Shown: positions 2,005 through 30,904 of the stretch, piece by piece
Layout of the letters: every line of letters starts with the position of its first letter
Numbering within the stretch: the first letter of the stretch is position 1
Notes under the pieces: model-generated
Database searches by the model: none
Told to the model about the DNA's origin: nothing
Seen by the model: the letters and a program-made list of their open reading frames with translations, nothing else
Position numbers and translations under genes: made by a program
Origin: a virus
Virus record (IMG/VR): IMGVR_UViG_3300042879_004080
Location: 1 to 32,093 of that record
Direction: 5' to 3' (one strand)
Length of the DNA stretch: 32,093 nt

Positions 2005-3222
2005 TCACGCCTCTTTCGCCACCCAGCGGGAACTGGTGGTGGTGCTGATGAGCGAAACCAAGCCCTGCGGGATGGTCGTTTCCCAGGCGTACCCCTGCCC
2101 GGCCGTCAGGTTGATGCCGTTCACCGTGGTGGCGGTGGCTCCCACATTCACGAAAGCCGACCCGGTGGTGACTTGGACGAGCAGATAGGAGCGGGTGGTG
2201 CTGGAGGCAAAGACGGTGATCGCGCTGTTGGCCGTGGTGACGGAGCCGGAGCCGTCAATGAAAGTGACGCGGGGAAGCTGGGGCGCGAGCGTGGGCAACG
2301 AGCCGATAGTGACGGAATTGCCGACCGTGACCGTGCCTGAGATGGGAAAGCTTGGACAAGATTCTCTTGGGATTACTGCCACTCCACCGCCTTCGTAAAT
2401 ATTGGCAGGGTTGTTGCTTGAATCAAGGCCTCCAAGTAATAAGCCTTTGCCAGCCTCGCCCGTTATCATTATGGCATTACCGCCCCAATAAGTATTGTTA
2501 GTTACAACATTCGATAAATTCGCCGTAACCGTGCCAGCAATCGTCTGTGTGCCTGTTGGATTAGCGGTAACTGTCCCCGCAATCGTGACGGAGTTGCCGA
2601 CAGTGACCGTGGCGGTGAATGGGGCAACATCTGAGGGATAAACCCTTGCTTTTACATACCCAGAGCCAGTTTCAACTCCTAGATTTGTCCATGACCCATC
2701 ATCTCGTTTTGCAACATTTGAGTTAAAAGTTACTGAGGATGCTCCAACCGTGACCGTGCCGGAGATGGCTGGAAGAGAGCCGATAGTGACGGAGTTTGTG
2801 ATTGTTGCGCCCAGCGTCACGGATGTCGGAACAGACCCGACATAAAGCTGAACAGGCAGAGGAGCGTTTTGGTTTACAGTTGTTGGGGCATTTCCGGCGT
2901 TTGCGTTTGACCACTGAATTGGCGGGACTGACCCAACCGTGACGGCTCCGTTGATGGTCTGGCTGGCCGGGAAGTTGGAGATGGTGACGGACGAGATCGA
3001 AATAGCCGGCATGGTGGTCACGGCCACGGATACGGCGCTGGCGCGGAGCTCGGCGTTGGTCAGGCCCCCGGCCGCCGTCACATTGATGGCCGGCATGGTC
3101 ACCACGTTTACGCTGACCACGTTGGCCACGGTGACGGTGTTGACCATCACGCTGGCCACCACGGGCTGGCTCAGGGTGACGACGCTGGGCGTTTCAGTTA
3201 AGGACAGATAGATGTCAGACAT
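2005..3222 (-). CDS. Repetitive beta-rich tail fibre, 405 aa
   Basis: A Val/Thr/Ser/Asn-rich protein built from repeats around ISGTVTVGNSVTIGSLP, with variants such as INGAVTVGSVPPI and TIAGTVTANPTG. This composition suits an elongated beta-helical or triple-stranded fibre shaft. The last 80 residues (LPRVTFIDGSGSVTTANSA ... LVSLISTTTSSRWVAKEA) are a different, probably globular, tip. Parts of 2340-2930 are AT-richer and contain non-repeat sequence (WGGNAIMITGEAGKGLLLGG), set between GC-rich repeat units, which looks like segmental replacement. It is predicted to be a receptor-binding or side fibre. No chaperone or enzymatic motif is seen. Confidence 0.7.
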   Translation of the reverse strand: MSDIYLSLTETPSVVTLSQPVVASVMVNTVTVANVVSVNVVTMPAINVTAAGGLTNAELRASAVSVAVTTMPAISISSVTISNFPASQTINGAVTVGSVPPIQWSNANAGNAPTTVNQNAPLPVQLYVGSVPTSVTLGATITNSVTIGSLPAISGTVTVGASSVTFNSNVAKRDDGSWTNLGVETGSGYVKARVYPSDVAPFTATVTVGNSVTIAGTVTANPTGTQTIAGTVTANLSNVVTNNTYWGGNAIMITGEAGKGLLLGGLDSSNNPANIYEGGGVAVIPRESCPSFPISGTVTVGNSVTIGSLPTLAPQLPRVTFIDGSGSVTTANSAITVFASSTTRSYLLVQVTTGSAFVNVGATATTVNGINLTAGQGYAWETTIPQGLVSLISTTTSSRWVAKEA

Positions 3223-3597: not shown

Positions 3598-5901
3598 TTA
3601 AACCTCGCTGATTTCGCGCTCCACTTCGGGCACGATGTTCACGCTAAAGGGCTTGGAGCTGTAGACCTTGTCCTGATACACCCACTCGATCTGGCCCACG
3701 GAGGGGATGGCGGAGCTATTGTCGGCCGCGCCGGCGAAGGCCACGAAGCGCTGCAGGGCGTCATTATCGGCCCGGAAATTGATGAGGTAGTAGAAATCCA
3801 GCTCGGCAAAGTTGGCGGCGGTGTAGGCAATGGTCTCGATGAGCACGGCCTGCCGGTTGGTCTTTTCCCTCAGGGTGAACTTTAGCTGGGTGAGCGGCAG
3901 ATTGAGGGACGCGCCGGAAGCGTCGTTAAAGATGACGGCCAGGGTGTGATCGTCCCCCTGCCGGACGGAAATGACGGCGCCGTTGCCGCGGTAGCTGGTG
4001 ACGGCGCGGGTGCGGGCATCGATCTGCACGTCCGTGAGGTCCCAGCGCTGGTCCAGCCAGGCAAACTGCTTGTCCACCACCACGAGCGTCTGGGTGACGG
4101 CGGAGGCGGCGCTGTAGGCGCTGTTGCCCGCCTGAGTGGCGGTGATCAGGGTGATGCCGGCGGAGACGGGGGTGCAGAGGGATCCGCTGATGGTGGCCAC
4201 GCCGGCCACGCTGCTGGCAAAGCTGACGGGCAGGCCGGAACTGGCGGTGGCCACCAGCTGGAAGGAGCCCTCGGCCTTGGCGGTGTTCTGGGCGATGGTC
4301 AGGGCATCGGCAAAGTAGAAATTGGGCGCCGTGCTGGCCGTGATGAGGGCGGCGGCGCGGTTGTAGATGTCCGTCTGGCCGACGACGCGGCGGGGGGTGA
4401 GCTTATCGAAGGAGATGGTCTGGGCGATGGGGGTGTTGACCACGGTGAGGACGCGGTCCACGGTGACGGCGGCGTCGTAGTTGGTGTTGCCGGCCTGAGT
4501 GGCGGAGATGGTGGTGGAGCCGGCCGTCAGCGGGGTGATGCTGCTGCCCGTCACGGTGGCCACGGCGGTGTTGGAGGAGGAAAGGGCCACGGTGAGGTTG
4601 GAGCTGGCGGTGGGAAACACCTGGAAAGCGCCGGAGCCGGCAAACCGTGTGGGCATGCTGGCAAAGGTGATCGTCTGGCTGGCCTTGGAGATGGTGACCA
4701 CGCCGCTGGTGGTGCCGTAGTAAAAATCGCTGAGCACGCTGGCCGTGACCACGTAGGAACCGGCGGTGACGGGGGCGGAAAGGCTGGCGGCCGTGCCGGT
4801 GTAGACGAGCTGGACGGTCAGGCCGGAGGGGGAGACGGTGGTGGTGGGGATCTTAGCCGTGCCGTCGTAGGTGAAGGTGAGGTTGGAAAGGGTGACCGTG
4901 GCCGGGGCGGAGGCGACGGAGTTGCGGATGGTTTGATTGTATTGATCCGCCACAAAAACCACCCCTGCGGAATCCACAGCAACGCCAGCAGGGAAATAAA
5001 ATCTTGCCGCTGAGCCTAATCCATTGTTTGCCCCTATGCTGCGTGCTTGGCCAGCCACTGTAGTTACTACCCCAGCGCTGGTTACTTTTCGGATCGTGTG
5101 ATTGCCTCTGTCAGCCACAAATACATTTCCTGCGGTATCTACGGCAACGTGATAAGGGCCGCTAAATCTGGCCGCAGAGCCAGTGCCGTCAGTGCTGCCA
5201 GTTTGCCCTGGTGACCCGGCCAAAGTGGTCACCACCCCCGCGCTGGTCACCTTGCGGATCGTGCTTTCATAATCTGTCACAAAAACATTTCCTACGGAAT
5301 CTACAGAAACTCCAAAGGGGAAATAAAATCTAGCGGCCGCGCCAGTTCCATCGGTAGATCCAAAAGATCCAGATGTTCCAGCTAGCGTGGTAACTACGCC
5401 AGCACTAGTTACTTTGCGGATAGAATGATTACCGAAGTCCCCCACAAAAACATTTCCAGCTGTATCAACCGAAATGCCAGCAGGCCGGTAAAACCTAGCT
5501 GCAGAGCCAGTACCGTCTGTGCTACCGTAAGAATTGGCTGCACCAGCTAAAGTGGTAACTACGCCAGCACTGGTTACTTTGCGGATGGTGGCGCTTTGTA
5601 AATCCGCCACAAACACATTGCCGGCGGTATCTACGGTAACACCAAAAGGCAAATTAAACCTAGCAGCCGATCCAGTGCCATCGGTGGTTCCGCTGACACC
5701 AGCAGATCCGGCTAAGGTGGTAACTACGCCAGCACTAGTTATTTTACGGATGGCGTGATTGTATTGATCCGCCACAAAAACGTTTCCGGAGGAATCTACA
5801 GCAACGCCAACAGGGTTGTAAAATCTGGCCGCAGAGCCAGTGCCATCGGTGGAACCTCCTGCGCCAACGCCTCCTGCCAGTGTGCCAAAATACAGGCTCA
5901 T
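3598..5901 (-). CDS. NHL beta-propeller / Ig-like tail adhesin, 767 aa
   Basis: Residues 17-327 contain six NHL-type repeats of about 55 residues, each with STDGTGSAARF, P.GV.VD..GNVFVAD and IRKVTSAGVVTTLAG, predicted to form a six-blade beta-propeller. Residues about 335-405 form an MBG-like domain (LTFTYDGTAK...), followed by two Ig-like domains (QTITFASMP..., NTAVATVTGSSI; then QTISFD... and ATQAGNSAYSA). The C-terminus (about 610-767) has a tail-adapter module with VRQGDDHTLAVIF (QGDD 648-651). The architecture suggests virion attachment through the C-terminus and host binding through the propeller. DNA of the propeller is clearly AT-richer than the rest, with the change near 4920-4930, exactly the propeller end. 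Similar NHL/MBG proteins are, from memory, common in Opitutaceae. Confidence 0.85.
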   Translation of the reverse strand: MSLYFGTLAGGVGAGGSTDGTGSAARFYNPVGVAVDSSGNVFVADQYNHAIRKITSAGVVTTLAGSAGVSGTTDGTGSAARFNLPFGVTVDTAGNVFVADLQSATIRKVTSAGVVTTLAGAANSYGSTDGTGSAARFYRPAGISVDTAGNVFVGDFGNHSIRKVTSAGVVTTLAGTSGSFGSTDGTGAAARFYFPFGVSVDSVGNVFVTDYESTIRKVTSAGVVTTLAGSPGQTGSTDGTGSAARFSGPYHVAVDTAGNVFVADRGNHTIRKVTSAGVVTTVAGQARSIGANNGLGSAARFYFPAGVAVDSAGVVFVADQYNQTIRNSVASAPATVTLSNLTFTYDGTAKIPTTTVSPSGLTVQLVYTGTAASLSAPVTAGSYVVTASVLSDFYYGTTSGVVTISKASQTITFASMPTRFAGSGAFQVFPTASSNLTVALSSSNTAVATVTGSSITPLTAGSTTISATQAGNTNYDAAVTVDRVLTVVNTPIAQTISFDKLTPRRVVGQTDIYNRAAALITASTAPNFYFADALTIAQNTAKAEGSFQLVATASSGLPVSFASSVAGVATISGSLCTPVSAGITLITATQAGNSAYSAASAVTQTLVVVDKQFAWLDQRWDLTDVQIDARTRAVTSYRGNGAVISVRQGDDHTLAVIFNDASGASLNLPLTQLKFTLREKTNRQAVLIETIAYTAANFAELDFYYLINFRADNDALQRFVAFAGAADNSSAIPSVGQIEWVYQDKVYSSKPFSVNIVPEVEREISEV

Positions 5902-14611: not shown

Positions 14612-14916
14612 CGCACGTCCTCCGGATCGCCCAGGCTCAGCGTGACCATTCCGGAATCCTCCTGGATGGACATCACGCGGCGGTTGATGCCGCCCACGCT
14701 GATGACGGTCAAAAGGGAGGGAGCCGAAACGGCGCTGGCGGGATAGGTAAAGTCGCCGCTTTGCGGCTGCACCAGCCCGCCCATGCCCAGCTCCCCTGCA
14801 CGGTCGCCCGGGTTGTACAGGCCGCTGACGGCCGTGCCGCCGATTGTGGCGGTGGTGGGCGCGGCCGCGATGACCTCGGACAGGGCCGAGGAGACAAGGG
14901 ATTCCAGCTCGGTCAC
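14608..14916 (-). CDS. Head-tail joining protein, lambda gpFII-like
   Basis: A 102-aa protein with GTG start overlapping the epimerase fusion stop (GTGA). It has an N-terminal helix (TELESLVSSALSEVIAAA) followed by a mostly beta region (TATIGGTAVSGLYNPGDRA ... LLTVISVGGINRRVMSIQEDSGMVTLSLG), the general architecture of lambda FII-type attachment proteins, which cap the connector and give the tail its docking surface. The position after the head genes and before tail genes fits. The sequence match is structural style rather than strict similarity. Confidence 0.6.
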   Translation of the reverse strand: MTELESLVSSALSEVIAAAPTTATIGGTAVSGLYNPGDRAGELGMGGLVQPQSGDFTYPASAVSAPSLLTVISVGGINRRVMSIQEDSGMVTLSLGDPEDVR

Positions 14917-16454
14917 GCCGTGGGTGCCTGTGTCAAAGATACTTCCGGCAGCACGTCCCGGATCCCGTCCGCCAGGTTCACCTTGGCCTCCCAGCCTAGA
15001 ATCAGCCGGGCATCCTCAGGGTTTTGCACGATGTGCTTCACGTCCCCGGGACGCTCGTCCGTGTAGCGGATCTCGCCGCCAAACCACTGGGCCACCTGGT
15101 TCAGGCTCCAGTTTTTTCCGGTGCAAAGATCGACCACGCCGCAATGGCGGGACCGTATGGCTTGCAGGTTTCCCTGCACGATGTCAGACACGTGGGTGAA
15201 ATCCCGCGTCTGCTCGCCGTCCCCGGTGATGACCAACCGGCCCTCATCCCGCCGGCTTTTGCGCAGCGCGGCAAAAACGTTCGGGCTGGGGCCGGTCTCG
15301 CTCTGGCGCGGGCCGTAGACATTGCTGTACCGCAGGCTAATGACGCTCTGCCCGTACATGTCTGCGTAGGTGGTGCCGATCCCCTCGCCCGCCTCCTTGC
15401 CGGTGCGGTAGGGCGTCATAAAGGCATACACCACGTTGGAGCTGGAAAGGACGACGCGCGGCACCTTGGCCTGCCGGGCCGCCTCGCACACGTGCAGCGT
15501 GCCCATCACGTTCGTCTGGTAGCAAAGGATGGGATCCTCGATGCACCAGGGCGTGCGGGCGATGGCCGCCAGATGAAAGACGCCATCTTTGCCCTCAAAC
15601 AGCTGGCGGATGGAGTCGTAGTTGCGGATGTCCCGATCAATAAAACTGGCCCGGGAGCTCACTTGCTCCCGGAATCCGGAGCGCAGGTTGTCGATGACCT
15701 CCACGTGGTTCCACGTCCGGCACAGCTCGTCCACCAGATGGCTGCCGATAAAGCCAGCCCCGCCGGTGACCAGAAAATGTTTGGGCTGCTGGAAACTGCG
15801 CCAGCGCACGTCCCCATGCAGGCCCGGGCTGGAGGACCGGCTGATCCAGTAGGCCGCCGTGTTGGTGCCATTCTGCATCATGCTGGCCGTCGTCACGTCC
15901 AGTGCCTTGGCGATGTTCTCGGCGTTGTTGCTTTCGTCGCGGACGTGCTCTTTGCCTTCCGCAATCCAGCGGTTGTAGAGGTGCCCTGGACGATCCACCT
16001 TGAGGCCGGCCAGCTCGATCCGCTTCCAGATCGCCCAGTCGTCCCCGCCCCAGCCCCACAGGTCGTTTGGAAATCCGTTGCAGGCGCGGTACGCCTTGGC
16101 CGAAAACGCGCAAAACGCGCCCAAGGCCAGCGGGTATCCATGCAGATCCAGAAAGCCTTCCGGCATCTCCTCTAGCTCGCCGGGAAGCTCGGCCACGGGC
16201 AGCTGGTAATCCGTGTTTACGTGGATAAAGCAGGCGTTTTCGTCCTCCCTCGCGGCCTCGTTGAAAATGGCGTTGAGCAGCCAGCCGCGGTTGAACTTCT
16301 GGTCGTCGTCCTGTTCGCCGACCCAGATCTTGTAGGTGTGGCGCGGGTTCTTGGCCATGACCGCCCGGATGTTTTCGATCAGCGCCTCCAGCTCCTGTTT
16401 GCGGAACTCTTGGGGCGGCCGGGCCCGGTAGGCGATGAGGAATGCGTAGTTCAT
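14913..16454 (-). CDS. Fusion of beta-1,4-galactosyltransferase-like domain and NAD-dependent sugar epimerase
   Basis: A 513-aa bifunctional protein whose ATG (MNYAFLIAYRAR) overlaps the previous stop as ATGA. Residues 1-200 carry the beta4GalT (GT7) signatures: FNRGWLLN (54-61), a FIHVNTDYQLP acidic motif (76-86) and GFPNDLWGWGGDDW (127-140). Residues about 225-513 form an extended SDR epimerase/dehydratase with Rossmann GGAGFIGSH (231-239), HLAAIARTP (294-302), a catalytic YRTGK (Y349, K353), LRYSNVYGP (374-382) and DFTHVSDIV. The Ser-to-Tyr spacing (S338/S339 to Y349) is about 15 residues shorter than in GalE. GalE-like enzymes make UDP-galactose, the donor for beta4GalT, so the fusion may couple donor supply to transfer. 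Confidence 0.87.
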   Translation of the reverse strand: MNYAFLIAYRARPPQEFRKQELEALIENIRAVMAKNPRHTYKIWVGEQDDDQKFNRGWLLNAIFNEAAREDENACFIHVNTDYQLPVAELPGELEEMPEGFLDLHGYPLALGAFCAFSAKAYRACNGFPNDLWGWGGDDWAIWKRIELAGLKVDRPGHLYNRWIAEGKEHVRDESNNAENIAKALDVTTASMMQNGTNTAAYWISRSSSPGLHGDVRWRSFQQPKHFLVTGGAGFIGSHLVDELCRTWNHVEVIDNLRSGFREQVSSRASFIDRDIRNYDSIRQLFEGKDGVFHLAAIARTPWCIEDPILCYQTNVMGTLHVCEAARQAKVPRVVLSSSNVVYAFMTPYRTGKEAGEGIGTTYADMYGQSVISLRYSNVYGPRQSETGPSPNVFAALRKSRRDEGRLVITGDGEQTRDFTHVSDIVQGNLQAIRSRHCGVVDLCTGKNWSLNQVAQWFGGEIRYTDERPGDVKHIVQNPEDARLILGWEAKVNLADGIRDVLPEVSLTQAPTA

Positions 16455-17125
16455 GCGAGGATCCACCTTTCCGTTTTGTCCTCCGGGCCGGCCACGCGGG
16501 TGGCGTGGTGGTTTTCCCGGTGAAAATCTTCCGATGGGCAAAACGCACCGCGGGTGGCGCCGATGTTTTGGATCCGGCTGACGCGGGGAAACATCTCCCC
16601 CATGCCCAGGTTGTCGCGGATCCGCTGCACCCCACCGTCCCAGAAGGAGGTGTCCCAGCTAGGCAAAAGATATTTTTCCCAGTGCTCCCGCCATGTGGCC
16701 CAGCCCCACGGCGTGAACCAGTTTCTGAAGTAGGCCATGTTGGGCTCGGCCTCGCCGCCGTGCTGGTTGTAGCCGGAGACGGTCAGCGTCATCGGGCTGG
16801 CGTGCCGGCCGGCCCACTCAAACCAGCGCAGCGCGTCCGGGCTGGGGACGGTGTCGTCCTCTAGATGGATGTGGTAGTCGGACGCCTCAAAGCCCAGCGC
16901 CAGGCAGTGCCGGATGGTCGCCCCGCAGCCCAGATGGTGCGCCGGAATGTGCACGGTGATGCCGTGCCCGCGGGCGATCTCTGCCAGCTGATCCGTCCAT
17001 TCGCTGGGATCCAGCACGGCCGTGACGGCGTACTCGCTGACGCCCTCGCAAAACGAGAGCGAGGAAAGCACCCGCTGAAAATAATCGGGGCGGCGATGGC
17101 CGCTGATCGTCAGGGTTTTTTTCAC
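16451..17125 (-). CDS. Glycosyltransferase, GNT-I-like / GT-A fold, 224 aa
   Basis: The GTG start at 17125 overlaps the stop of the upstream transferase (GTGA). A longer in-frame extension exists but its residues are out-of-frame reading of the upstream gene, so it is rejected. The protein opens with KKTLTISGHRRPDYFQRVLSSL, a GT-A start, and has a metal-binding HLEDDTVPSPDALRWFEWA (EDD at 89-91), which resembles the LEDD signature of N-acetylglucosaminyltransferase-I-like enzymes. The later NWFTPWGWATWREHWEKYL and the EDFHREN region probably shape the acceptor site. Donor and acceptor cannot be read from sequence. It is the middle gene of the three-gene cassette. Confidence 0.8.
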   Translation of the reverse strand: MKKTLTISGHRRPDYFQRVLSSLSFCEGVSEYAVTAVLDPSEWTDQLAEIARGHGITVHIPAHHLGCGATIRHCLALGFEASDYHIHLEDDTVPSPDALRWFEWAGRHASPMTLTVSGYNQHGGEAEPNMAYFRNWFTPWGWATWREHWEKYLLPSWDTSFWDGGVQRIRDNLGMGEMFPRVSRIQNIGATRGAFCPSEDFHRENHHATRVAGPEDKTERWILA

Positions 17126-19275
17126 GATTTCAGCAGACTGTAGGCCGCCAGGTTTCCGCCGGTCCCCTTGTTGTTTTGCAGGGCGTCCTCGCCCAGCCCT
17201 TCCGGTCGGATCCGGATGCCGTTGGATCGGTTGAAGTCCGGCGTGGCGCAGACCAGGGTTTTTGTGCCTAGCTCCCGCAGGCGGTAGGACATCACAAAAT
17301 CGTCCGCCATGAAACGTGCCCGGCCCTTGTCGTCCAGCTGGGCAAACTCCTTGGGCGTGCAGCTGGGAAACTCGCCTCCCTCGATCAGCGGCCACATATC
17401 CTTCAGCCGGCAGGCGATCGCGCCGAAGCCCTCGATGATCTCGGCGTGGCCGAGGTGGTCGGGCGCGATGGCGTAGCCTTTCGGCCCGGTCATAAAAAAC
17501 CCGCACAGGCCCAGCGCCGCCTTGTCCGGACAATTTTCCACCAGCGTCTGCACCATCCGCGGGCTGTAGAGGATGTCGTCGTCGCACCAGATGACGAAAT
17601 CGTCCTGGGCCCCGGCCTCGTCCGCCGCCCAGGCCGCTCCGACAAACTTGGTCGCCGGGCCGTGGTCGCGGCTGCGGTAGATGGTGATCCTGCCTTCATC
17701 TGCCAGCTTTTGCAGCTCGGCCGGGATCTCCGGGAACCGCTCGCCCGTCCGGGCCAGCTTTTCGGGCACGGAGAGGATGATCTCGTCCGCCGGCATGGAC
17801 TGGGCCAGCAGGCTCTCGATCGTGGGCAGAATAGTGTGGATCCGCTTTGGGGTGGTGGTCAGGCCGATCACGACCCGGCTTTTTTTGTCCACGGGATCGG
17901 GCAGGCGCTGGGCCGTGCCGGGCAGCGTGCCGTCATGGATCAGGGCCGCATCCCACATCAGCGGCGGGATGAGCGTCTCCGCCTCCGCCTTCACGGTCAG
18001 CAGAATATGGCCCAGTGCCTTTTCGATTGCCTCGGTGGCATCCTTGACGATGTTGAACCGCTTGGCTCCCGGATCTTCCGAAGGAGGCGTGATGAACAGA
18101 TGCTGGATCCCCGCCGGATTGTCCGAGGTGTCCATGAACAGCTTGTGGGCCCGGACGCAGTGAGCCAGCTCTCCGGCGTAAATGACGGTGATCTTGCCCC
18201 ACGCGGCACGGAACGCCTCCCTCTCGCAGCGATCCGCGTCCTCTTTTTGTCCGGCCGCCCGGAGGCATTGCGACAAAAGCATCTTGGGCAGGTGGCCGTA
18301 CCACTTGGCGTCCAGGTTCCAGATGACGCCGGCGGGCCGCGGCAGGCTGTCCACCACTTGCAGCAGGCGGCTGGCTTCATGCAGGTTCCCCTCATCCATC
18401 AGCTGGCAGGCCAGATGGCCGTGCGCTTCCTTGCGGGTGGGATGCAGGGTGATGGCTTGGCCAAAGTATTTGCGCTTCTTGTCCGGGGCGGCACACATCA
18501 CGCCCGCCATGCACAGCAGCTGGTATCGCTCTGTGGCGCCCACGTCCGGGTGTTCCAGCGCCAGTAGGCACGGGCCGATGGCTTTCTGGTACTGGCCGCG
18601 CAGGAAATCCTCCATGGCGATGTAGTACCAGTTCATCCCGGCCCCTTCGGTCTCGCTGGCCAAAATTCGTTTGTTGCGATCCCCGCTGCCCGTCTTGTTC
18701 GTCTTGGGCACATGGGTGATGCACAGGCCGTCAGCCAAGCCCACGGCCGCTTTCTCGTCCGGCTTCACCCTTTCGTGAATGGCCCGTTCCCAGTGGGCCG
18801 GCAGGGTGCCGTCCGCCTTACGGCGGAACACACGCTCGCGGCGATTGTCCCGCATGCCGCTGTTCTGCACGTCGTACCGGGTCACCAGCACGTCCCAGCC
18901 CTCGGCCTGCTTGTCCCGCTCCTCAATCACGCCGCGGTGCAGTGCTGCTTGGTTGCCTAGGAACAGATCGTCGCAGTCCGCCCAGATGACGTACTTGCCC
19001 TGGGCTAGGCTGAACGCCTGGTTGCGGGCGGCGGCAAAGTTGTCGATGTGCGGCCAGCCGGAATTTTCCGGGGCGTTGTGATAGACGGCAAACGTGCCGG
19101 CCTCGCCGGCGGCGTCCTGCAGGGCTTTCTTGAGATCGTCATGCTGCTGGGATCCGGTGGCGGCCACCACGATGACCTCGTCCCACAGCCCTTTCGCAGA
19201 TTGGATGAGCCGAAAAAGAATCTCGCCCTCCGCCGGGCCGGCGATAAGGGCGAGAGACACTAGGGGGGTATTCAT
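17122..19275 (-). CDS. Two-domain glycosyltransferase with central TPR-like region
   Basis: A 717-aa protein. Residues 1-200 are a GT-A/GT2-type glycosyltransferase: VSLALIAGPAEGEILFRL, a conserved FAAARNQAFSLAQGKYVIWAD segment ending in the metal-binding D100-C-D-D, and a downstream HWERAIHERV. Residues about 210-380 are helical with TPR-like spacing (FLRGQYQKAIGPCLLALEHP; AITLHPTRKEAHGHLA). The C-terminal third (about 465-717) is a second transferase, with VIGLTTTPKRIHTILPTIES, the DHGPATKFVG motif (537-546) and a metal-binding CDDD (564-567). It would transfer sugars from nucleotide donors, with two activities on one chain; acceptors are unknown. It lies between capsid and connector genes and its stop overlaps the next start (GTGA). 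Confidence 0.85.
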   Translation of the reverse strand: MNTPLVSLALIAGPAEGEILFRLIQSAKGLWDEVIVVAATGSQQHDDLKKALQDAAGEAGTFAVYHNAPENSGWPHIDNFAAARNQAFSLAQGKYVIWADCDDLFLGNQAALHRGVIEERDKQAEGWDVLVTRYDVQNSGMRDNRRERVFRRKADGTLPAHWERAIHERVKPDEKAAVGLADGLCITHVPKTNKTGSGDRNKRILASETEGAGMNWYYIAMEDFLRGQYQKAIGPCLLALEHPDVGATERYQLLCMAGVMCAAPDKKRKYFGQAITLHPTRKEAHGHLACQLMDEGNLHEASRLLQVVDSLPRPAGVIWNLDAKWYGHLPKMLLSQCLRAAGQKEDADRCEREAFRAAWGKITVIYAGELAHCVRAHKLFMDTSDNPAGIQHLFITPPSEDPGAKRFNIVKDATEAIEKALGHILLTVKAEAETLIPPLMWDAALIHDGTLPGTAQRLPDPVDKKSRVVIGLTTTPKRIHTILPTIESLLAQSMPADEIILSVPEKLARTGERFPEIPAELQKLADEGRITIYRSRDHGPATKFVGAAWAADEAGAQDDFVIWCDDDILYSPRMVQTLVENCPDKAALGLCGFFMTGPKGYAIAPDHLGHAEIIEGFGAIACRLKDMWPLIEGGEFPSCTPKEFAQLDDKGRARFMADDFVMSYRLRELGTKTLVCATPDFNRSNGIRIRPEGLGEDALQNNKGTGGNLAAYSLLKS

Positions 19276-19340: not shown

Positions 19341-20219
19341 TTAGACGATACGAACCAGTGAGCTGGTCGACCCACGGGCACAGCCGTAGATCAGCGACAG
19401 CGTGCGCTGGTGAGCCCCGAGCCCAATGTCATAGAACTCTCTGAGTTGAAGAGAAATTCCAGTTTTCGGCTCGGAGACGTTAGTGATGTCGCCGGGGATC
19501 GCCACGTTGGCGGGAACTTCCGGAAGCCGTGTGGCCACCAGGAGCGCCTCGCGCTGACCCACGAAGCCCTTCGACACGGCCGAAGGCAGCGACGGATAGC
19601 CGTTGATGGCGATTCCGTGCACCAGGCCGAGATCGGCGGAGCCGACCAGGTCGGTGTTACGCTGGCCGTTGGCCACCACGACGGTGTCCTTGGACAGGCT
19701 GGCGTAGTTGCCCGGGGACAGGACCGCGAAGCGGCCGCCCATGGGCACCTTGTTGGTGTTGAGGGTGGAGGCGATGTCCACGATGGAACCGAACGTCACG
19801 GCACCGGCGCTGATGCTCAGCGTGCTGGTGAAGTGCGTGGTGACCAGGGCGAGGACGTCGTCCACCATCGCCTTGCCGATCGCGTGCGCGGCCTGTTCGG
19901 CGAAGCGCTCGATCAGGTTGACGGAGGAGCTGGTGCGCTCGTCGTCATTGATGGAGTAGCTGACGTGCTTGAATTTGTTCAGGGTGATCGCCACGTCCGT
20001 CTGCGTCACATCGCTGGCGAGGTAGCCTTGCGTTGTGCTGTAGTCCGAGGCGGACTGCACGGTGATGACGTGCGTGGTGATGCTGTCGCCTTTGCGGGCG
20101 GTTGCGTCGGAGTAGTCGCCAACGATCTGGCTGACGAATCCGTACTGTTCGACCAAAAGCTCAAGGGCGCGCTGGGCGACCACTTTGCCATTGGACGTAG
20201 TTCCGAGTGTGTTTCCCAT
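19341..20219 (-). CDS. Major capsid protein (HK97 fold)
   Basis: A 292-aa protein following the protease-scaffold gene, with an AAAGGA ribosome site about nine bases before ATG. It begins MGNTLGTTSNGKVVAQRALE and has features of P22-like coat proteins: an early helix (VVAQRALELLVEQYGFVSQIV), a beta-rich domain (ATARKGDSITTHV...), a central long helix (NLIERFAEQAAHAIGKAMVDDVLALV, near 103-128) and an A-domain segment with VLSPGNYASLSKD. The C-terminal part has LREFYDIGLGAHQRTLSLIYG. It should form the capsid shell. The family call rests on features and synteny; no cross-linking residues were assessed. Confidence 0.85.
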   Translation of the reverse strand: MGNTLGTTSNGKVVAQRALELLVEQYGFVSQIVGDYSDATARKGDSITTHVITVQSASDYSTTQGYLASDVTQTDVAITLNKFKHVSYSINDDERTSSSVNLIERFAEQAAHAIGKAMVDDVLALVTTHFTSTLSISAGAVTFGSIVDIASTLNTNKVPMGGRFAVLSPGNYASLSKDTVVVANGQRNTDLVGSADLGLVHGIAINGYPSLPSAVSKGFVGQREALLVATRLPEVPANVAIPGDITNVSEPKTGISLQLREFYDIGLGAHQRTLSLIYGCARGSTSSLVRIV

Positions 20220-28999: not shown

Positions 29000-29139
29000 A
29001 CCCACTGCCCCATTCCGTACCGCCCGCGGTTCTTTTGAATCTGCGCCAGCACGCCGGCCCACTCCTCTGGCGTCCAGGAGGCGATGATGCGGGCGGAGAA
29101 ATCCCGGATGATCATTTCAAGCAGCTCCCTGTCGCTCAT
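28996..29139 (-). CDS. Small hypothetical protein, 47 aa
   Basis: The ORF starts MSDRELLEMIIRDFSARI inside the last codons of the methyltransferase (23-nt overlap), with a GGCGGAAC sequence directly before the ATG. It ends in an ATGA overlap with the following gene, which supports real translation. The sequence is mainly helical with a WTPEEWAGVL segment. No known domain is recognised. It probably belongs to the same early operon. Confidence 0.55.
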   Translation of the reverse strand: MSDRELLEMIIRDFSARIIASWTPEEWAGVLAQIQKNRGRYGMGQWV

Positions 29140-30904
29140 GTTCCGCCTTTGCTATGCGTTTTCCAATCCAAGCCATGCACGGCACGGCCATTGAGTTGCC
29201 TAGAGCCTTGTACCTTGGCCCATCCGGGCATTGATCGGCTGGCTTGCCGCGCCATGGGATCAGCGTGTGGTTGTCGGGAAAGCCTTGGAGTCTTTCACAT
29301 TCCTTCGGGGTCAGCCTGCGGACGGCCATGCGACTGTCTACTGTGGCCACCTGATTATCCCCCATGTCCTTCCGCAACGTGGGGGACATTTCCTCAACAA
29401 ATCTGCTTTCGTTGCCCTCTCTTGAGGCGATGCCAGGCTCAAACGCCACCACCTTCGGCTCCGTATCCCCACCCTTGGTTCCGGCCTTTAGGGTAGGAAC
29501 GACCTTCTGCTCGGTAATTTTTCCAGTTAGGCGAAGCTCGGATTCTTGGAAGGCAATCGTTTCCTGAACCACGGCAGTCCCGCCTTGGTTGCACGCTGGG
29601 TTAAGACCACTAGCAGAATCTAGGGTCTTGCTGGTTTCCTCTCCGACATTTGCATAGAAGCCGCCATTGGGTCTGTCTTTTCTTTTGTTTCCGCCATAAA
29701 TATTTACTGGAACCGCCTCCTGCACCAACGGCACATTGCCACCACCGGTCCCAAACCTTGAAACGCAAGCCGGGGCAACTTCGTGCGGGCCGGTCACGCG
29801 GCTGTCGTTGGGGTGGTTTTCGTAAAGGACGGCGTGCTTGTCGCCCTTGGTAAGAGTCGGGCAAGGATCTCCCGGCTTACCAACGCCAAGGCCGTTTCCC
29901 TTGCCATCCTGCCTGTCTCCACGCTTGCCGGCATTGCGGGTGGCTTGGTCGTGGATGGGGATGGCCTGCACGAGGCCGGATCCACCTTGTGAAAATATCT
30001 CCTGATTGGAAAAACCTATTCCGCCAGATGATTTCAGTGCTTGGCTTAGTGTTGGATGCACGACAGAGCCATCCCAATGTGATTTTTTTTCTGCAACCAA
30101 GTCGGTTGCGTCCTTGTAGTCTCTTGCCTTCATGGCCGATGCTGTTTCGTCATTCATATATTCACCGAATGCCTGCATTCTGAATGCCTGTGACTGCCAT
30201 AATTCTTCCGGTGTAGGCGTCCTGCCCGTTAAGCCCCCCCCCATGTGCGCACCGTCGCTCAAGCAGCCGACTACTTCTCGTTCTGGCAGGCTGACTCCAA
30301 CGCCTTCCTGAGCATCGGCGGCAACTCCTTTCCCCTTTTCTCGGCTCGGCGGAGAATCCCGGCGCACGCTTTCTGACTCAAATAAAACCTTGGCGGCAGC
30401 GGCCCCGTCTCCAAGACATCCGACAACGAACACACGGCGGCGTCGCTGGGCCACTCCGAACCACTGAGCGTCCAAGACCCGGTAGGCCCACCCATACCCC
30501 AGCTCCCCCAGCGCCCCGAGGAAGGAGCCAAAGTCCCTTCCTCCGTTGCTGGACAGAACGCCGGGGACATTTTCCCAGACAATCCATCGAGGTTGAAAAC
30601 GTTGAGCGATTTTAAGGAATGTAAGCATGAGTCCGCCGCGTGGGTCGTCGAGCCCCTTGCGCAGTCCTGCAACACTGAAGGACTGGCAGGGGGTGCCTCC
30701 AACGAGAAGGTCAACTGTTCCGCCTGGTATGTTCCACTGCTCATATTTGTTCATGTCTCCATGGTTGGGAACCTCCGGCCAGTGATGCTTGAGCACCGCG
30801 GCCGGGAATGGTTCGATTTCTGAAAAGGCAACCGGCTCCCAGCCAAGTGGCTCCCAAGCCACGCTGGCGGCCTCGATGCCAGAGCAGACGGAGATGTATT
30901 TCAC
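29117..30904 (-). CDS. DNA (cytosine-5) methyltransferase
   Basis: A 595-aa C5-cytosine methyltransferase with GTG start, overlapping the upstream stop as GTGA. Motif I is SVCSGIEAA (5-13, SAM binding), the catalytic Cys-73 lies in TPCQSFS (motif IV), ENV is at 111-113 (motif VI), QRRRR at 153-157 (motif VIII), and motifs IX-X follow near residues 529-580 ending in GNSMAVP. It would modify cytosines in phage DNA, most likely to evade host restriction. Between motifs VIII and IX lies a variable region of about 350 residues, larger than in standard bacterial enzymes, with degenerate units around PTL...G...AV (for example CPTLTKGDKHAV and VPTLKAGTKGGD). This stretch is AT-richer than the gene ends and should include target recognition. 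No matching restriction endonuclease is seen in the window. Confidence 0.93.
   Translation of the reverse strand: MKYISVCSGIEAASVAWEPLGWEPVAFSEIEPFPAAVLKHHWPEVPNHGDMNKYEQWNIPGGTVDLLVGGTPCQSFSVAGLRKGLDDPRGGLMLTFLKIAQRFQPRWIVWENVPGVLSSNGGRDFGSFLGALGELGYGWAYRVLDAQWFGVAQRRRRVFVVGCLGDGAAAAKVLFESESVRRDSPPSREKGKGVAADAQEGVGVSLPEREVVGCLSDGAHMGGGLTGRTPTPEELWQSQAFRMQAFGEYMNDETASAMKARDYKDATDLVAEKKSHWDGSVVHPTLSQALKSSGGIGFSNQEIFSQGGSGLVQAIPIHDQATRNAGKRGDRQDGKGNGLGVGKPGDPCPTLTKGDKHAVLYENHPNDSRVTGPHEVAPACVSRFGTGGGNVPLVQEAVPVNIYGGNKRKDRPNGGFYANVGEETSKTLDSASGLNPACNQGGTAVVQETIAFQESELRLTGKITEQKVVPTLKAGTKGGDTEPKVVAFEPGIASREGNESRFVEEMSPTLRKDMGDNQVATVDSRMAVRRLTPKECERLQGFPDNHTLIPWRGKPADQCPDGPRYKALGNSMAVPCMAWIGKRIAKAEHERQGAA
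30271..30744 (-). CDS. Overlapping 157-aa reading frame nested in the methyltransferase gene
   Basis: A long ORF read in the +1 frame relative to the methyltransferase codons, beginning MSSGTYQAEQ and ending in LESACQNEK. Its C-terminal half contains CSLSDVLETGPLPPRFYLS followed by KACAGILRRAEKRGKELP. From memory, this FYLS-KACAGILRRAEKRGK-LP pattern is common in small hypothetical phage proteins, some apparently encoded alone rather than inside a methyltransferase. That makes this frame more than an ordinary GC-rich shadow. I see no clear ribosome-binding site, and dual coding is unproven: conservation here could be a by-product of the conserved methyltransferase frame. Function unknown. Confidence 0.35.
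   Translation of the reverse strand: MSSGTYQAEQLTFSLEAPPASPSVLQDCARGSTTHAADSCLHSLKSLNVFNLDGLSGKMSPAFCPATEEGTLAPSSGRWGSWGMGGPTGSWTLSGSEWPSDAAVCSLSDVLETGPLPPRFYLSQKACAGILRRAEKRGKELPPMLRKALESACQNEK

Follow-up and report, generated by a model that had tools for sequence, protein, structure and literature searches.

The window analyzed here, a 32,093-nucleotide stretch of DNA that forms a 32-kb, metagenome-derived phage record (IMG/VR virus record IMGVR_UViG_3300042879_004080), was found to encode a protein, designated P1, in which a GT7 glycosyltransferase is fused to an SDR epimerase. Judged by profile, fold and core residues, the first half of P1 is a GT7, of the type that produces milk sugar in animals, and the second belongs to the extended SDRs, in their 4-epimerase group, and falls outside the GalE equivalog. 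With moderate confidence, we propose that P1 is a self-supplying enzyme that caps a phage-made glycan with a terminal Gal or GalNAc, probably on a virion protein. The features of the gene are as follows.

14913..16454, minus strand: P1, fused GT7 glycosyltransferase/SDR epimerase gene of 513 aa (single ORF; Pfam; 4 complete homologues in other viral records)
16463..16468, minus strand: Shine-Dalgarno AGGTGG ahead of the P1 ATG (read from the sequence)
15789..16454, minus strand: GT7 half, residues 1-222, with FNR 54-56, the N80-T81-D82 metal motif, WGWGGDD 133-139 and H170 (B4GALT1 match, AF2, Foldseek)
15774..15800, minus strand: junction, residues ~219-227 (RSFQQPKHF), placed by alignment with the lone GT7s of L015/L037/L081/L229 and with lone SDRs
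14916..15779, minus strand: epimerase half, residues 226-513, with VTGGAGFIGSH 229-239, Ser339, Tyr349, Lys353, RYSNVYGPRQ 375-384, R417 and RPGD 468-471 (Pfam, Foldseek, motifs)
15408..15440, minus strand: shortened Ser339-Tyr349 segment, with a spacing of 10 compared to 23-24 in most viral SDR relatives

P1 is read on the minus strand from an ATG at 16454 to a stop at 14913 as a single frame of 513 codons with no internal stops. The initial annotation had described one ORF that joins a GT7 to an SDR, and this was confirmed: the Pfam families of both halves scored above cut-off within the one frame, and the motifs previously listed for it are present at residues 54-61 (FNRGWLLN), 127-139 (GFPNDLWGWGGDD), 231-239 (GGAGFIGSH) and 349-353 (YRTGK). 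Lone viral GT7 proteins, 45-52% identical to the corresponding half, stop at a residue aligned to ~222 of the fusion, and lone SDR proteins start at a residue aligned to ~224-226. By these alignments, the GT7 and SDR frames appear to be joined end to end, without a linker.

Both Pfam GT7 families were recovered in the N-terminal half, Glyco_transf_7N at residues 4-82 (3e-10; 40.4 bits compared to a curated cut-off of 27) and Glyco_transf_7C at residues 108-158 (3e-13; 49.5 bits compared to a curated cut-off of 23). When the first 225 residues were searched against the PDB, bovine and human B4GALT1 were matched at an E-value of 1e-16 and B4GALT7 at 2e-13. The first full-length AlphaFold2 (AF2) alignment misplaced the GT7 C-termini, so that residues 195-223 of the full-length model cannot be relied on; for the GT half by itself, a clean alignment gave a model with a pLDDT of 88. 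By this approach, the predicted structure was found to have the GT7 fold, with the top 30 Foldseek matches in the PDB all to B4GALT1 or B4GALT7 (TM up to 0.80). The core residues of the family are kept, including the metal Asp82, the catalytic Asp139 (WGWGGxD) and His170, the equivalent of His347. The full DVD motif of B4GALT1 is absent, with Asn80-Thr-Asp82 in its place, and the Mn ligand Met344 is replaced by Gly167; both the Asn80 and the Gly167 positions are variable among viral GT7s. Description of this half as 'metazoan-type' was misleading, as phage contigs commonly carry GT7 genes that stand alone and GT7C (PF02709) is present in ordinary bacteria. A metazoan gene or contaminant was ruled out by the phage operon context and the many lone phage GT7s.

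Residues of the GT7 half also bear on its sugar donor. In B4GALT1, the change of R228 to Lys shifts donor use from Gal to Glc, and the change of Tyr289 to Leu opens the enzyme to GalNAc (PMC7185993). P1 keeps the R228 equivalent as Arg56 and has Ala110 at the Tyr289 position, which is Gly in the nearest lone GT7s. The initial annotation, although correct on the joining of the two domains and their motifs, had taken UDP-galactose as the donor; since Tyr289, which excludes GalNAc in B4GALT1, is Ala110 in P1, the donor need not be UDP-Gal. Together, Arg56 and Ala110 suggest that P1 may accept UDP-GalNAc besides UDP-Gal.

The C-terminal half matched the Pfam family Epimerase at residues 228-435 (8e-45, above the curated cut-off), and residues 226-501 correspond to an extended SDR epimerase. 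Its matches in the PDB were archaeal and bacterial UDP-Glc/UDP-GlcNAc 4-epimerases, including 6dnt at 2e-40. AlphaFold2 modeling of the whole chain (mean pLDDT 82, pTM 0.64) gave no reliable relative placement of the halves; the best Foldseek matches of this full-length model were the UDP-glucose 4-epimerase TM0509 and UDP-GlcNAc 4-epimerases (TM 0.84-0.85 on the target), such that both halves fold as had been predicted. The NAD-binding and catalytic motifs are intact (GGAGFIG 231-237 as GxxGxxG, Ser339, Tyr349 and Lys353), and the UDP-binding residues (Asn179, Arg231, Arg292 and Asp295 in GalE) are present by motif (NVYGPR, TRDFTHV and RPGD). With 116.9 bits compared to a threshold of 262, P1 falls below the GalE equivalog TIGR01179. 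In place of the 4,6-dehydratase TDE motif, P1 has SSSNVVY.

The Ser-Tyr spacing is 25 in E. coli GalE, and the segment of P1, at 10, is shorter by 15 residues, in agreement with the estimate in the initial annotation. The short loop is not unique: among the 80 best viral SDR relatives, 7 have a spacing of 12. A unique innovation was ruled out on the ground that other phage SDRs share a short loop. These other phage SDRs (L155, L193, L201, L208, L210, L212 and L214) represent a second short-loop type, e.g., AGSSSVHSGHYSNPYTFSK. At the substrate gate of the epimerase, P1 has Ile475, where 6dnt and TM0509 have Ser and E. coli GalE has Tyr. Based on Arg56, Ala110 and this gate residue, UDP-GalNAc would be at least as likely a donor as UDP-Gal.

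The complete fusion was detected in four other viral records (L002 to L005) at 95-96% amino-acid identity, and two more records are cut within it. L002 and L003 are the same in the fusion gene; between distinct copies, dS was 0.33-0.52, and dN/dS was 0.03-0.10 for the GT half and 0.04-0.08 for the epimerase half. For the full gene, dN/dS was 0.03-0.07, the lowest of the region; when distinct lineages were compared, the capsid protein gave 0.11-0.48, and values for head-tail proteins reached 0.8. Both halves of P1 are under purifying selection. Because the complete fusion recurs in four further records with low dN/dS in both halves, P1 is not the result of a frameshift or artefact. The contig is metagenome-derived, as would suit a sequencing or assembly error that fused two adjacent genes, but this explanation has a negligible probability given that the same full-length frame is found in L002 to L005 at dS values (0.3-0.5) of separate lineages. 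A frameshift between the halves was likewise not seen and is refuted by these independent full-length copies.

To place the fusion among viral GT7s, 2.9 million viral contigs were scanned for WGWGG(D/E)D. Of 98 stretches recovered, ~80 have a GT7 domain, and among these genes an epimerase is attached only in the P1 clade. Other arrangements were also noted. Viral proteins of ~450 aa (L021, L023, L041 and L072) carry GT7 behind an N-terminal domain that resembles a family-2 glycosyltransferase. An operon at L060:881-4230 encodes a GT7, a radical-SAM-like protein, a glycosyltransferase-like protein and a GalE-like SDR, all as separate genes; this arrangement plausibly reflects the condition before the fusion arose. 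No close relative of the fusion was detected in 84,980 cellular genomes (by one scan with degenerate patterns, insensitive to distant relatives) or, with limited sensitivity, in 296 genomes of one phylum. Megablast found no near-identical phage isolate, and tblastn of the GT half against INPHARED isolate phages gave no match.

P1 lies in an operon of head genes. The initial annotation did not extend to this phage setting, the two partner transferases or the variable slot described below. The neighbors of P1 are the following.

16451..17125, minus strand: P2, GT13/GnT-I-like glycosyltransferase with an EDD motif (PDB GnT-I, E 3e-7; Pfam GNT-I 2e-5, just under cut-off); its GTG start overlaps the P3 stop and its stop overlaps the P1 start
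17122..19275, minus strand: P3, 717 aa, GT2 (GmaR-like)-TPR-GT2 (Pfam GT2 1e-12; a weak GmaR match, E 3e-4, plus TPR)
19341..20219, minus strand: major capsid protein (MCP), P22-coat type (PHROG 283, 4e-30; nearest isolate Verrucomicrobia phage P8625)
14608..14916, minus strand: head-tail attachment-like protein, the far border of a variable slot (a weak Pfam Phage_attach match, 1e-3, below cut-off; position in sister phages); its GTG start overlaps the P1 stop

The order on the minus strand is terminase, portal, protease/scaffold, MCP, P3, P2, P1, head-tail genes and tail genes, and the order MCP-P3-P2-P1-head/tail is common to all fusion carriers. Reading frames overlap at P3/P2 (GTGA), P2/P1 (ATGA, shared by the P2 stop and the P1 ATG) and P1/head-tail (GTGA), which suggests coupled translation. 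No membrane helices were found in P1 to P3 by hydropathy. GmaR is a flagellin glycosyltransferase, and GnT-I is a GlcNAc transferase of glycoproteins. The capsid protein is 28.5% identical to that of its nearest isolate, P8625, in which short hypothetical genes, and no large cassette of glycosyltransferase size, lie behind the capsid gene. An analogous cassette, with a P3 homologue, GT7 and further genes, was detected in a second phage lineage (L037, L081 and L015) behind an unrelated capsid protein. P2 relatives were found in at least 130 viral contigs and in one of ~50,000 isolate phage records (Microbacterium phage Magritte). Partner transferases are almost absent from the isolates of this set, and the cassette is largely unexplored because almost no isolate among the 50,000 phage genomes carries them.

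Other genes of the window were noted in the course of this analysis. Positions 2005-3222 encode a 405-aa protein in which Ser+Thr make up 26% of the residues and SVTIGSLPAISGTVTV-type repeats occur; relatives are present in the second GT7-cassette lineage (L081, L015 and L112), and none was found in 18 kb of P8625. This Thr/Ser-rich protein is a possible candidate for the glycan acceptor. Positions 3598-5901 encode a 767-aa tail-region protein with NHL beta-propeller repeats and an MBG domain. At 29117-30904 is a DNA methyltransferase-like gene (595 aa, PHROG 116) whose matched segments are set apart by a long insertion. The scanned proteins included a DNA methyltransferase but no recognisable base hydroxymethylase, and DNA-base glycosylation like that of T4 was for this reason judged unlikely.

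The position between P2 and the head-tail gene was found to be exchangeable. A search with P2 gathered ~45 sister phages that keep the MCP-P3-P2 order, of which 42 loci were readable at this slot: 28 carry Methyltransf_24, 8 a VLDLGC protein, 4 the fusion, 1 FkbM and 1 a lone GT7 (L229). The VLDLGC protein is ~185 aa (L232, L234, L235, L238, L240, L241, L243 and L245), and the one member tested (L234) matched no Pfam or PHROG family. By parsimony, the slot changed at least 9 times on the P2 tree, and the eight members of one well-supported clade show it in four forms. L224 shares P3 (96%), P2 (92%) and the tape-measure-like protein (90%) with the P1-bearing phage, yet has FkbM in the slot. By contrast, in phages that carry the fusion at 94-97% identity, the identity falls to 64-66% for the capsid protein and to ~45-52% for the tape-measure-like protein. 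Since sugar O-methylation and galactosylation are alternative finishes of a sugar chain, the slot has the look of a glycan-capping step, and its exchange suggests that sister viruses trade the way in which a sugar coat is completed.

P1 is placed in a glycosylation line on the basis of the GnT-I-like P2 and the GmaR-like/TPR P3, both kin of protein-glycosylating enzymes. In the line we propose, P3 would transfer the first sugar onto a protein, and P1 would perform the last, 'capping' step. The SDR half would most likely catalyze NAD-dependent 4-epimerisation of UDP-Glc/UDP-Gal and/or UDP-GlcNAc/UDP-GalNAc through Ser339, Tyr349 and Lys353. The GT7 half would then transfer the galacto-sugar to a terminal sugar in an inverting, metal-dependent reaction, with the residue added by P2 as its most likely acceptor. 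That the chain may make and spend its own donor, as suggested in the initial annotation, is the most economical reading, and the fused epimerase would render the phage independent of the host UDP-Gal/GalNAc pool. The target is probably a capsid or tail protein of the same operon, to which the position of the genes points, and virion glycosylation in this phage is putative. Activities, donor, acceptor, order of steps and target are all predictions in this scheme, and against it stand the short active-site loop, which could alter the SDR reaction (dehydratase, decarboxylase or a different sugar), the loss of the B4GALT1 Mn ligand Met344 (Gly167) and the weakness of the GmaR and Phage_attach matches. 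More tentatively, the locus may be one of glycan-type switching, in which two conserved transferases build a short protein-linked glycan and a one-gene slot swaps its cap (methyl, galacto or self-supplied galacto). The fusion would there cap a virion glycan with Gal/GalNAc (LacNAc- or LacdiNAc-like), in the GnT-I-then-B4GalT order of animal glycoproteins.

Instead of a virion protein, the same fused enzyme and its cassette could alter a surface glycan of the host and so serve superinfection exclusion or seroconversion. P1 to P3 are generic GT-A enzymes, and many phages bear glycosyltransferases that alter host polysaccharides, both of which count in favor of a host target. We nevertheless consider it unlikely, as P1 to P3 have no membrane helix, their neighbors include no recognisable flippase or lipid-carrier transferase, the cassette is embedded in the head operon and coupled to the MCP and head-tail genes, and P3 resembles a soluble protein glycosyltransferase.

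Other readings question the chemistry of the fusion. The short loop (spacing of 10 instead of 23-24) may indicate that the SDR half is a 4,6-dehydratase, uronate decarboxylase or reductase, whose unusual sugar the transferase would use; dehydratases and decarboxylases share the fold and motifs of the SDR superfamily and also score. By contrast, the best matches by sequence and fold are UDP-Glc and UDP-GlcNAc 4-epimerases, the TDE motif is missing (SSSNVVY), and the GT7 half retains the Arg that selects galacto donors, which leaves a non-epimerase SDR improbable, to about the same degree as a host target. Still less probable is that one half has lost catalysis and acts as a scaffold or regulator, with the fusion structural rather than self-supplying. 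The change of the first Asp of DVD to Asn80 and of Met344 to Gly167 in the GT half, and the short loop in the SDR half, would fit such a loss, but the core catalytic residues are all kept (Asp82, Asp139 and His170; Ser339, Tyr349 and Lys353), and dN/dS is low in both halves. A self-supplying enzyme that caps a phage-made glycan remains the reading we prefer.

Compared to known enzymes, P1 is similar to B4GALT1 and B4GALT7 in fold, FNR and WGWGG(E/D)D motifs, metal Asp, catalytic Asp and the His347 equivalent. It differs in that it is phage-encoded, soluble and without a transmembrane anchor, has ~20-26% identity to members of solved structure by fold alignment, carries Asn, Gly and Ala where B4GALT1 has the first Asp of DVD, Met344 and Tyr289, and is fused to an SDR. 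With GalE/WbpP-type 4-epimerases it shares the Rossmann glycine motif, Ser-Tyr-Lys, and the UDP-binding Asn, Arg and RPGD (TM ~0.85 to TM0509 and to the Pseudomonas protegens UDP-GlcNAc 4-epimerase), but its Ser-Tyr segment is ~14 residues shorter, Ile475 is at the gate, and it is fused behind a transferase. Lone GT7s of L229 and of L015/L037/L081 (45-52% identity) have a stop codon where the fusion continues and no epimerase; that of L229 occupies the same slot as P1, and that of L037 lies in the analogous post-MCP cassette.

Virion glycosylation is reported for mycobacteriophages (Che8 and Rita, as cited in PMC11256854), in which phage-encoded glycosyltransferases are thought to decorate the capsid. 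Their genes are located close to the end of the genome, and that source mentions no fusion of a GT7 with an epimerase, whereas P1 to P3 are directly behind the capsid gene. The post-capsid cassette with its exchangeable last step occurs in many uncultured phages, such that virion glycosylation, of which few isolates are known examples, may be a widespread and variable trait of phages. Engineered fusions of GalE with LgtB and with alpha-1,3-galactosyltransferase use UDP-Glc as the donor source in one chain (PMC2818619). These are man-made, with the epimerase first and a short linker, whereas P1 is natural, with the transferase first, a GT7 and no linker. P1 may thus represent a natural, selected counterpart of the man-made epimerase-galactosyltransferase fusions for use of cheap UDP-glucose, and its compact linker-free layout and probably relaxed donor pocket make it a lead for a biocatalyst.
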